Position numbers and translations under genes: made by a program
Source: Sulfurimonas autotrophica DSM 16294
GTDB lineage: Bacteria; Campylobacterota; Campylobacteria; Campylobacterales; Sulfurimonadaceae
Assembly (NCBI RefSeq): GCF_000147355.1
Contig: NC_014506.1
Coordinates: 62,001-126,000, forward strand
DNA length: 64,000 bases
Reading direction: 5' to 3'
The notes under the pieces: model-generated
What the model saw: only the letters and a program-made list of their open reading frames with translations
Database searches by the model: none
What the model was told of the DNA's origin: nothing
Shown: piece by piece, positions 32,933 to 56,762 of the stretch
How the letters are laid out: the number at the start of each line of letters is the position of its first letter
Numbering within the stretch: the stretch's first letter is position 1

Positions 32933-33733
32933 CTACCAAAAATTTGCTAACTCTTGGGCACGCTTGGTTTTTTTGTCATGGCTTATACGAAGCAGGGCAT
33001 AAAATTTGGCTGCAATTTTGAGCTGCTTTTGTAGTTCATCATACGATATTTTCTTTTTTGAAGTTTGATTATAGGCACGCAAAAAGGCATTTACATGTAA
33101 GCGTTTATTGCTTGGATTAAATGAGAGCAAGGCTATGGCCGTGTCAAAACTAAACTCACCCAGACCGCCGTCTATAAAATCAAATACTGCTATTTTTTCT
33201 TTATCAAAAAGGGTGTTGTCTGTGAAAATATCTCCATGAATAAAGCCATCATGTTTTTGGTCTAAATTGTGTAGGCAAGAGAGTTTTTTATAATAAGCAT
33301 AGTGACTTTTTTTTACACTTGCAAGGAGTTTATTTATCTCATATGATACAAGAAAAGGCGCTGTATATGTGATTTTTTTGCTGATATTATGAAACTTTGC
33401 CATAAATCTTGCAAGAGCGTGAATGTGATATAACTGCACATTTTTTGGTATTTCACCGCTAAGCTTTGTATACAAATACCACTCTTGATTTTCTTGCAGA
33501 TATTTTGGTACATTAAGATTATGAGCAGATAAAAGATTTAAAAGTGTTTTGTCGATTTGAATTTTTTTACTTATATCTCTTTCATATTTTTTTAAAATAT
33601 ATGCAGACGTGGCGTTGTTTATGATGTAGGTTGTATCTATGATGCCATTTTTTGTCGGTGTAATTTGAGTAAAATCATATGCCGGAAAAAGAAGATTTGC
33701 CTCTTGGAGTGTAATGGGCGTTTTTACACCCAT
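32933..33733 (-). CDS. APH-family small-molecule kinase (ThrB2/choline kinase-like) in B12 operon
   Basis: The protein has 266 residues of the aminoglycoside phosphotransferase fold: Lys in YILKKYERD, the Brenner motif HGDIFTDNTLF (HGDxxxxN) and metal-binding DFIDGG. Relatives phosphorylate homoserine, choline or ethanolamine. It is 9 bp upstream of the CobD-type decarboxylase, which needs phosphothreonine or phosphoserine, and no PduX-type kinase is visible. It is therefore a good candidate for the amino acid or ethanolamine kinase of the nucleotide-loop arm. This role is inferred. Confidence 0.78.
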   Translation of the reverse strand: MGVKTPITLQEANLLFPAYDFTQITPTKNGIIDTTYIINNATSAYILKKYERDISKKIQIDKTLLNLLSAHNLNVPKYLQENQEWYLYTKLSGEIPKNVQLYHIHALARFMAKFHNISKKITYTAPFLVSYEINKLLASVKKSHYAYYKKLSCLHNLDQKHDGFIHGDIFTDNTLFDKEKIAVFDFIDGGLGEFSFDTAIALLSFNPSNKRLHVNAFLRAYNQTSKKKISYDELQKQLKIAAKFYALLRISHDKKTKRAQELANFW

Positions 33734-34158
33734 TAGACTTTGCAGACCTGCATGATTTTAGCCCAGTCCAAATCAAAATGTTTTTGGACATAAGCTCTGT
33801 GATGCGGCACAGTGCAGCCTGAACAATCTTGATGAATTTTTTCACCGTAAATACCTTGCCTGCCGTCTTTTGATTCAATGGAACAGTAGCTAAACTGTGT
33901 TTTGTTGTCTATTTTTTTAATGCCTTTGTCATTAAAACGAAAATTAGGACAAGAACAAAGATAGCAGTTAAGTTCTTCCATATCATGACATTTTTTATTC
34001 TTGGCATACAGCGGACAAAAATCACTCTCTTTTTCTTTCATGTTTTCAAAATCAAAGTAGTCTATGATTTGCTCTTTGTCATAACCTTGTTGCAGGAGTT
34101 TATCTATGATTTTTTTATGTGCTGTCGCATGTTCTTGCACCCATGTTTCGTAACCCAT
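33733..34158 (-). CDS. Cysteine-rich small domain protein linked to B12 genes
   Basis: The protein has 141 residues. The Cys clusters are FCPLYAKNKKCHDMEELNCYLCSCPNF, then YCSIESK and HQDCSGCTVPHH. This pattern matches PF04071, a small cysteine-rich domain found beside cobalamin genes in bacteria and archaea. It probably binds a metal or Fe-S cluster. Its stop overlaps the kinase start by 1 bp. It is separated from btuC by the palindromic element. Confidence 0.8.
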   Translation of the reverse strand: MGYETWVQEHATAHKKIIDKLLQQGYDKEQIIDYFDFENMKEKESDFCPLYAKNKKCHDMEELNCYLCSCPNFRFNDKGIKKIDNKTQFSYCSIESKDGRQGIYGEKIHQDCSGCTVPHHRAYVQKHFDLDWAKIMQVCKV

Positions 34159-34200
34159 TTAGACTCCTTTGCTTTGTGCTTTTGAAAGGGCACCTCTAAC

Positions 34201-34442
34201 AAACCCTAATCATTCTCAGCATTATAACAAGTAAACTAATATAAGGTGAAACTACGCAGAGGCTACAGGTAGCCTCAAATGGTTTGAACGCAGTAGTAGT
34301 TTACTTGTTATAATGCCCATAGGGAGGCTAAATATGGAGCAATCTTGCACACAATTTTTTTTCAGCGTAGCTATGGCTATGCTTTAAAAAAAGTTCTGCA
34401 CAATCTTACTTCATCTTTAGCCTCTGAGATTGGTTAGGGTTT
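34201..34442. repeat. 240-bp nested inverted-repeat element inside the B12 operon (MITE-like or structured RNA)
   Basis: An outer 19-bp inverted repeat (34201-34219 and 34424-34442) encloses two arms. Arm 1 is a perfect 20-bp inverted repeat, gcattataacaagtaaacta at 34219-34238 and its complement at 34297-34316, with a small hairpin GAGGCTA/TAGCCTC (34259-34276) in its loop. Arm 2 is AGGCTAAA/TTTAGCCT (34325-34332 and 34416-34423) around an imperfect hairpin of about 34340-34407. The whole folds as a three-way junction. The outer repeat supplies the last codons and stop of btuC. The operon elsewhere has gaps under 15 bp, so insertion is likely. No target-site duplication was seen. Confidence 0.75.
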
Positions 34443-35402
34443 TTTAGAAGTGCCCATGATAAGATAGATAAAAAACGGCCCGCCAATAATGGCTGTAATA
34501 ATGCCGATAGGCAGTTCACTTTGTGTCTGCATCGTTCGTGAAATTGTATCACACAGTACCAAAAAAAGGCCGCCAAACAGAGTTGTTTTTATAATTCTTT
34601 TGCTGATATTCACAGGGTAGAGTTTGTGCACAATGTGCGGAACAATAAGCCCGACAAAACCAATAGGACCGCTGATACTGACAAGAATACCGATGGCAAA
34701 AGAGGAAACAATGAGTAAAATCAGGGTAACTTTTTTTGTATTTACACCTTTGAGCTGTGCCTGCTCTGAGGAAACACTTAAAAGCTGCAATTCAAACCTG
34801 TACATGTAAATAAATACAAAGAGTATGATGGCTGCAATGCTGATTATAAGAGGATATTGCCAGCCGATGACGGAGAGAGAACCCATAGTAAAACGTATGA
34901 GCATGTCATTTTGTATAGCACTGCCGAGGTAAAAAATGACCATCAAAACGGCACTGTAAAAAAGAGAAAGCGCAATACCCAAAAGTAAAAGAGACTCCGC
35001 ATGACTTTGACGTAAGAACTGGGCGAGATAGAGCAGTAAAAAGACAGTGAACAAAGCGCCCAAAAAACCAAAAATAGAGATGGCGGCAAAACCAAAAAGA
35101 AGCGTGCCGAGTGAGAGTTTTATAGCAATACCTGCACCCAAAACCGCTCCGCTTGATATTCCCAACGTATAAGGAGTCATCAAAGCATTTCTAAAAAGTG
35201 TCTGAAACAATAGTCCGCTGATTGCCAAAACAGCACCTGCAAAGAAGGTAAAAAGTACCCGAGGAAGACGCAAATCAAAGAAAATTTTTGCATCTAAAGA
35301 GTTTACATGGAAGATGTTTTTCGGACTCAAATCAACAGAACCGACAAAGGCTGAGAGTAAAAATACACCTACTAACAGAAGCCAAATAAGTTTTCTAATC
35401 AT
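34434..35402 (-). CDS. btuC: Vitamin B12/siderophore-type ABC permease (FecCD family), BtuC
   Basis: The protein has 322 residues and about nine to ten TM segments. FecCD hallmarks are DLRLPRVLFTFFAGAVLAISGLLFQTLFRN, GISSGAVLGAGI and GPIGFVGLIVPHIVH. B12 rather than iron is inferred from the adjoining btuB-like receptor and cob genes. The terminal codons come from the inverted-repeat element. It overlaps btuD by 8 bp. Confidence 0.85.
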   Translation of the reverse strand: MIRKLIWLLLVGVFLLSAFVGSVDLSPKNIFHVNSLDAKIFFDLRLPRVLFTFFAGAVLAISGLLFQTLFRNALMTPYTLGISSGAVLGAGIAIKLSLGTLLFGFAAISIFGFLGALFTVFLLLYLAQFLRQSHAESLLLLGIALSLFYSAVLMVIFYLGSAIQNDMLIRFTMGSLSVIGWQYPLIISIAAIILFVFIYMYRFELQLLSVSSEQAQLKGVNTKKVTLILLIVSSFAIGILVSISGPIGFVGLIVPHIVHKLYPVNISKRIIKTTLFGGLFLVLCDTISRTMQTQSELPIGIITAIIGGPFFIYLIMGTSKKP

Positions 35403-55778: not shown

Positions 55779-55889
55779 ATTTCAACCTTTTATTTGTTCA
55801 AATTATAAGAAATATTAGCCTAATTGATGTTAAAAATAGATTAAACATGCTATTTTTATCGTCAATTTGATTAGACTTTTGCAAGAAGT

Positions 55890-56762
55890 CTATTTTTTAT
55901 TTATAAAGTATACCGCAAGCATGCTGATAAGTCCACCAACAATTATATGTGGCTGCAAGGGTTCATCTAGAATCAGCCAGGCACAAATCAGGGCAAAAAA
56001 CGGCACTAAAAACATAAAAGAGCTTGTCTTTTGACTGCCGAGTTTTCCGCTGGCGATAAAGAAGATAGTTGTCGCAACTGTTTGGCCTAAAACAGCGAGA
56101 TAAATCAGGGCAATCCAAAATTTTGCACCTTGAGTAAAAACAGCACCAAGATCAGAATTATAGGCATACAAAAAACTAAAAAAAGTGGCTATAACTGAAA
56201 TAAAAAAACTGTAATGCACAGGATGAATATGCTTTTGTGAGTATTGTGAGAGAAGAGTAACACCTGCCCAGATAATAGCACAGAGTAGGAAGTAAATATT
56301 TGAACCGTTTAAAAATAGTGAGAAATTATTGAGCTGCAGTAAAATATAACCGCCGATTAGTCCGAGTAAAAGACCAAGATACTGTCTTGTTGAGAGTCTG
56401 CTTTTAAAGAATATGGCAACAAGTAAAAAGGTCATAATAGGACTGAATGTTGTAATGATGACACTTCCGGCCCCTGCAAGACCATACTTTATACCCAAAA
56501 AGGCAAAAACCATAAAGGCAATGTTTAAGAGTGAACTGAGGGCTATGTACTTAAGTGAGCCTCGAGTAAGCGTTATAGGTGTTTTAAAAAAATAAAGAAT
56601 TGGTAAAAATGAGAGACTCATAAGAAAAAAACGCCAAAATATGACGACATCCATCGGCATTGTAAGTGTAAGAATTTTTAAAGCAGTCCATCCTCCGCCC
56701 CAAAGCAACATAGCAAAGAGCAGTAGATATTCATAATGTTTATCGTCGTTTTTCAAATTCAT
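55890..56762 (-). CDS. EamA/DMT family transporter
   Basis: The protein has 290 residues and ten TM segments in two EamA repeats (LLWGGGWTALKILT near the start; ALICAWLILDEPLQPHIIVGGLISMLAVYF at the end). It probably exports or imports small metabolites; the substrate is unknown. The start overlaps the end of the symporter gene by 23 bp. Confidence 0.85.
   Translation of the reverse strand: MNLKNDDKHYEYLLLFAMLLWGGGWTALKILTLTMPMDVVIFWRFFLMSLSFLPILYFFKTPITLTRGSLKYIALSSLLNIAFMVFAFLGIKYGLAGAGSVIITTFSPIMTFLLVAIFFKSRLSTRQYLGLLLGLIGGYILLQLNNFSLFLNGSNIYFLLCAIIWAGVTLLSQYSQKHIHPVHYSFFISVIATFFSFLYAYNSDLGAVFTQGAKFWIALIYLAVLGQTVATTIFFIASGKLGSQKTSSFMFLVPFFALICAWLILDEPLQPHIIVGGLISMLAVYFINKK

Follow-up and report, generated by a model that had tools for sequence, protein, structure and literature searches.

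Among the repeats described from bacterial genomes, MITEs such as ERIC, Correia/NEMIS, RUP, Nezha and QMITE are short and non-coding, with terminal inverted repeats, target duplications, stably folding transcripts and intergenic AT-rich sites (PMC10969869, PMC2229807, PMC3733652), all of which they share with the element analysed here. The CIR elements of Caulobacter and Brucella likewise consist of two long inverted-repeat arms joined by a linker, and their fold is conserved phylogenetically (PMC2229807). REP and BIME sequences, which go with RAYT transposases, are also extragenic palindromes in many copies, though REPs measure only 20–40 bp and depend on transposases of the IS200/IS605 type (PMC3733652). 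Campylobacter, Helicobacter and Epsilonproteobacteria go unmentioned in a 2024 review of prokaryotic MITEs (PMC10969869). The open literature on MITEs in Sulfurimonas, Sulfurovum or Epsilonproteobacteria and on covariation in bacterial MITEs yielded no description of the present family, nor of any core with exchanged ends.

The window, a stretch of 64,000 nucleotides from Sulfurimonas autotrophica DSM 16294, contains at the 3' end of btuC a non-coding element of 268 bp (34188–34455). An earlier note, made from the letters alone, had described a large nested palindrome at this site. The palindrome is real and larger than first described, its true boundaries lying outside the limits of 34201–34442 given in that note. 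The outer repeats, put at 19 bp, extend over 32 nt at 88% identity (34188–34219 and 34424–34455), and the first arm with its inner hairpin is present with a stem of 23 nt at 96% (34219–34241 and 34294–34316) rather than a perfect 20 bp. The second arm with an imperfect hairpin was described correctly, and has a stem of 39 nt at 77% (34324–34362 and 34386–34424). The features of the element are as follows.

34188..34455, no strand: whole MITE, delimited by the coinciding ends of matches in congeners (BLAST query 17–286), the inverted repeats and an alignment of 35 full-length relatives.
34188..34213, plus strand: left terminal inverted repeat, type A (GGGCACCTCTAACAAACCC...), an inverted repeat whose ends are shared with an autonomous IS5-family insertion sequence (L039).
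34430..34455, minus strand: right terminal inverted repeat, type A, containing the btuC stop codon.
34215..34428, no strand: conserved core, constant while the ends differ.
34219..34316, no strand: arm A, with a stem, a conserved internal loop and an inner hairpin.
34316..34324, no strand: CCC-ATA-GGG mini-hairpin between arms A and B, kept in at least 30 of 32 relatives with a variable loop (CCC-NNN-GGG).
34324..34424, no strand: arm B, with an imperfect stem and an apical hairpin (34365–34371 and 34376–34382).
34339..34351, minus strand: left side of the arm B motif (GCAATCTTGCACA on the plus strand), with fixed mispairs to 34394–34409.
34394..34409, minus strand: right side of the arm B motif (TTCTGCACAATCTTAC on the plus strand), whose mispairs with the left side are G.U, tandem A.G/G.A and tandem G.U/U.G.

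From the outside inward, the terminal repeats, of which about 26 nt at each end are exchangeable, are thus followed by CTCAG (34215–34219) and CTGAG (34424–34428), which close the core, by arm A with its inner hairpin (34259–34265 and 34270–34276), by the mini-hairpin and by arm B with its apical hairpin. Both strands fold with a stability well beyond that of shuffled sequences: the btuC-coding strand reaches −122.7 kcal/mol as RNA (z −12.6) and the plus strand folds as DNA with a z of −10.8, with no shuffle as good in either case. Members of the family are typically 264–272 bp long, and their longest stop-free stretch has a median of 50 aa; no conserved ORF or peptide was seen across them. 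Some copies depart from this plan. One shorter element (L347, G023:C10) seems to have its two arms joined through their apical hairpins, which resemble each other (GTAGCTACGG), as though arms A and B had recombined, and three others (L024:1501–1783, L072:253–557 and L197) carry extra sequence, including small hairpins, within the arms, indicating that the arms tolerate insertions.

The element sits between two genes read from the minus strand.

34434..35402, minus strand: btuC-type permease gene (FecCD family; PF01032, 3.2e-82), with its last six codons and stop inside the element.
33733..34158, minus strand: gene for a 141-aa Cys-rich protein downstream of the element, present in 64 of 80 Sulfurimonas genomes, with a weak PF04071 match below the cut-off.

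The earlier note had placed the element in a B12 operon and had it contribute the btuC stop codon, and both statements stand. The other neighbouring genes overlap or nearly adjoin, the stop codon (34434–34436, minus strand) lies in the right terminal repeat, and the last six btuC residues, GTSKKP, are encoded by the element. Comparison of the locus in relatives revealed an empty orthologous site in G030, G059 and G099, where btuC ends with its own stop. The gap from btuC to the gene downstream, the same one in all, is 13–14 bp in the first two and 35 bp in the third, compared with 279 bp in S. autotrophica. These stops and short gaps indicate that the element was inserted in the lineage of S. 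autotrophica and took the place of the btuC stop. The gene for the 141-aa Cys-rich protein and btuC are separated by other genes in several relatives. An insertion can evidently supply a stop codon and stretch a gap of 13–35 bp to one of such length with both genes kept, and in the B12 operon it is probably tolerated rather than useful.

Of the options in the earlier note, that of a MITE is borne out by further copies, target-site duplications, empty orthologous sites and matching autonomous insertion sequences. BLAST with the element found related copies in 18 of 59 congeners, the matches sharing both of their end points, and no copy in 39 genomes outside the genus; this is the opposite of conservation at one site in distant relatives with no copies elsewhere, which the note took as an argument against mobility. 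The S. autotrophica genome holds two copies in all, the second of which is diverged, has type B ends and lies between two divergent genes (L002:1476–1743; genome positions 1126421–1126688). Full-length copies are often flanked by 4-bp target duplications, mostly TTAA and also TGAA, ATAT and ATAA. One genome (G316) contains nine near-identical copies at nine sites, eight of them with exact 4-bp duplications that include ATAA, ATTA, TACA, TGAA, TTTA and ATAT, which points to recent transposition. From these comparisons the mobility of the family appears well supported. At btuC no target-site duplication can be recognised (GAAA / ATGA), in keeping with an insertion of some age. The S. autotrophica genome also yielded no IS5-type (PF01609) transposase, so that this copy looks like a fossil. 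For both reasons, its movement is inferred from its relatives.

The terminal repeats of the family are of at least three unrelated kinds, A, B and C, each matching a different autonomous IS5-family element in the genus. Type A ends (GGGCACCTCTAAAAACC) are those of a 1258-bp autonomous insertion sequence in G052 with PF05598 and PF01609 domains, and of an 88% relative in G055 flanked by TTAA (L266). Type B ends (TAGACTTCTTGCATAACC) belong to an 898-bp insertion sequence with PF13613 and PF13359 domains and TTAT flanks, and type C ends (TTGAACCCTCTGAA) to a third, with PF05598 and PF01609, which is present once in G013 and repeatedly in G107. From their Pfam domains and general knowledge, we take the three partners to be different groups of the IS5 family. 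The MITE shows no match to the type A and type B insertion sequences beyond the terminal 45 nt, and the absence of a shared interior leads us to reject the element as an internal deletion of a known insertion sequence. Type B ends also occur on core-less palindromes of 51–61 bp and around unrelated palindromic interiors (L123, L129, L267, L268 and L340–L346), indicating that ends and interiors are modular in both directions. Within the window, a 21-bp palindrome of type B end sequence (TAGACTTTTGCAAGAAGTCTA) at 55874–55900 is followed by TTTTTT; it is either what is left of a type B element that lacked the core or simply an intrinsic terminator.

Closely similar cores are found between different ends. 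The cores of L224 (type A) and L231 (type C) are 98.1% identical over 210 nt while their ends are entirely different on both sides, the difference starting at the same point, beside CACAA/TTGTG. The second S. autotrophica copy (type B) and L314, a type A copy from another species, have cores that are 91% identical, and copies with A ends and with C ends occur together on a single Sulfurovum contig (L227). A tree built from 135 cores requires about 14 end-type changes over the three end kinds; changes of group A ends number 12–14 over bootstrap trees, a bootstrap that is not fully settled, and supported branches force at least seven changes for A and at least five for C. Collectively, these comparisons show a core of about 210 nt that stays constant while both ends of about 26 nt are replaced together. 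Such pairwise replacement might come about if the core inserted into a palindrome lacking one, or if one end converted the other through the hairpin, though both are guesses.

The core also reaches beyond the genus. A scan of 84,980 prokaryote species with a 24-base pattern from arm B gave 93 matching stretches, and among the 80 matches listed all hosts are campylobacterotal: Sulfurimonas, Sulfurovum, Nitratifractor, Sulfurospirillum, Hydrogenimonas, Arcobacter and unnamed epsilonproteobacteria. A covariance model of arm B has matches in 46 of 397 near-complete Campylobacterota genomes, from 19 of 68 genera; its copy numbers per genome are lower bounds, as at most nine candidates were scored in each. 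The core is older and more widespread than its ends. The arm B pattern had no match in viral contigs, plasmids or phages, and an origin from any of these was rejected on that ground.

The fold of the core is retained as its sequence changes. Among 32 copies chosen by BLAST, double changes are seen in 57 of 81 pairs, and the covariation score is 0.512, compared with 0.184 for shuffled alignments and at most 0.138 with partners slid. Arms A and B covary on their own, arm A in 17 of 19 pairs. The terminal repeats would covary in any case, since both have to be recognised by a single transposase, and covariation of the arms could stem in part from hairpin-templated repair of imperfect palindromes rather than from selection. 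With fixed positions removed, one-sided stem changes yield G.U and A.C at similar frequencies (about 50 vs 34 and 42 vs 41), as expected for DNA palindromes or templated repair, and show no sign of RNA-specific stem selection. The RNA energy of the whole element, strand against strand, also reveals no preference.

Arm B contains five fixed positions. Read on the minus strand, they form G.U, A.G/G.A and G.U/U.G; the plus strand has C.A or C.T mismatches in their place. They are seen in the BLAST set and in a set chosen with the covariance model, with a motif-chosen "wide" set, on which that model was partly trained, left out. In G316 a pair between the fixed mispairs has gone from G-C to T-A on both sides with the mispairs unchanged. 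One-strand mispairs together with this compensation point to selection on the folded minus strand, and provide moderate evidence that one folded strand, as RNA or single-stranded DNA, would be under selection.

Two readings of the core bear on these data. According to the first, it is a mobile non-coding RNA gene or single-stranded DNA structure that acts in trans or in its own propagation, with the ends as its vehicle. Exchange of the ends while the core is kept, G.U and tandem G.A pairs that are fixed in a strand-specific way next to covarying pairs, and confinement to one phylum in the scan of 84,980 species are consistent with it. However, Rfam yielded only chance matches to microRNA hairpins, below gathering scores, and no relative; no promoter is conserved across subfamilies; orientation is unbiased both to genes and to the assumed direction of replication (28 of 46, p 0.18, not significant, with the origin position assumed); and the equal frequency of one-sided G.U and A.C changes in the stems counts against it, and we regard this reading as rather unlikely. 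Similarly doubtful is the more specific proposal that the core may be a selfish structured RNA or single-stranded DNA cassette of Campylobacterota that works by way of its minus-strand fold and reaches new hosts and sites by repeatedly taking up matched end pairs from different IS5-type transposons; if true, it would amount to a non-coding gene with interchangeable transposon ends. The second reading, to which we give no better than a modest chance, is of a passive palindrome whose fold is kept by hairpin-templated mutation alone, with the arm B motif, in two direct copies of TTGCACAA, bound as duplex DNA by a host protein. The motif is indeed quasi-palindromic and present twice in direct orientation, and stem changes are symmetric between strands; yet in G316 the two motif copies carry different but complementary changes (TTTCACAA and TTGCAAAA) that preserve the fold at the expense of the linear site, and every fixed mispair is of a kind stable on one strand.

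The relation of the element to transcription was assessed both at the locus and across the family. A single promoter-like site was found, compared with 2.0 expected from shuffles.

34221..34250, minus strand: weak promoter-like site in arm A, TTCACC-18-TATAAT with a preceding TG (TGTTATAAT), directed outward to the gene for the 141-aa protein.

The arm A TATAAT is common to about a third of Sulfurimonas copies and absent from the other subfamilies, and an outward promoter was rejected as a selected function on this basis. Among 107 non-redundant insertions, the element shows no preferred orientation with respect to codirectional genes (32 vs 27), giving no sign of a conserved sense-strand role in host mRNAs; an apparent sense-strand bias in a count that included contig ends and duplicates was gone in the non-redundant one. 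These insertions are commoner in divergent than in convergent gaps (33 vs 15, p 0.013), and the elements often end 10–30 bp before a start codon. No intrinsic terminator-like site, defined as a G+C-rich stem followed by a T-run on the sense strand, was found in 33900–34700. The transcription attenuator offered in the earlier note is not supported, on this count and on the unbiased orientation, and an attenuator specific to the operon was rejected also for occupation of the site in one lineage only. That the fold in the btuC transcript is a domesticated regulator, by which the mRNA would be attenuated, processed or stabilised at the junction of uptake and assembly genes, is improbable. In its favour, the fold is very stable in the sense transcript, the strand transcribed here is the one on which the mispairs of arm B make sense, and ERIC and NEMIS MITEs are known to affect mRNA stability (PMC2229807); against it, the btuC site is that of one lineage, no terminator-like site accompanies it, orientation is even and family members lie at unrelated sites.

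As a whole, the data are very probably explained by an old, immobile copy of a MITE in which a structured core has swapped ends and borrowed IS5-type transposases. In this preferred explanation, an IS5-type transposase acting in trans would have put the element at the btuC 3' end, replacing the stop codon, and S. autotrophica would have lost that transposase afterwards. The core would be a selfish structured cassette that persists by borrowing any transposase available, and selection would act on its fold as read from one of the strands. Putatively, transcription passes through the element or restarts near its end.

Comparison with the known systems places the family as follows. It is short and non-coding, with terminal inverted repeats, dispersed copies, 4-bp duplications in many members and the ends of autonomous insertion sequences, as expected of a MITE; its interior is not derived from an insertion sequence, a feature that some definitions do without. 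The MITEs compared are each the remnant of one insertion sequence, whereas here one core is combined with at least three unrelated end kinds and has no such interior. CIRs lack terminal repeats and an end-to-end stem, whereas the ends here pair and match known insertion sequences. With the IS5 family, in both its PF05598 plus PF01609 and its PF13613/PF13359 groups, the element shares ends and 4-bp duplications, but it has no transposase and, against the type A and B insertion sequences compared, no shared interior, the termini alone matching. In contrast to REPs, it is about 268 bp long with terminal repeats and target duplications, and its partner insertion sequences carry DDE transposases, which sets it apart from REP/RAYT systems. 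The usual view of MITEs is that each is a degenerate copy of a single insertion sequence, its interior dispensable. In this family it is the interior that is conserved and the ends that are exchanged, which implies that something selects the core, and selection on selfish DNA without coding function can be tested on it; its covariance model would account for many intergenic repeats that lack annotation in Campylobacterota of vents and sediments. The family is a MITE in the broad sense, and the structured core with exchangeable ends is what is new.
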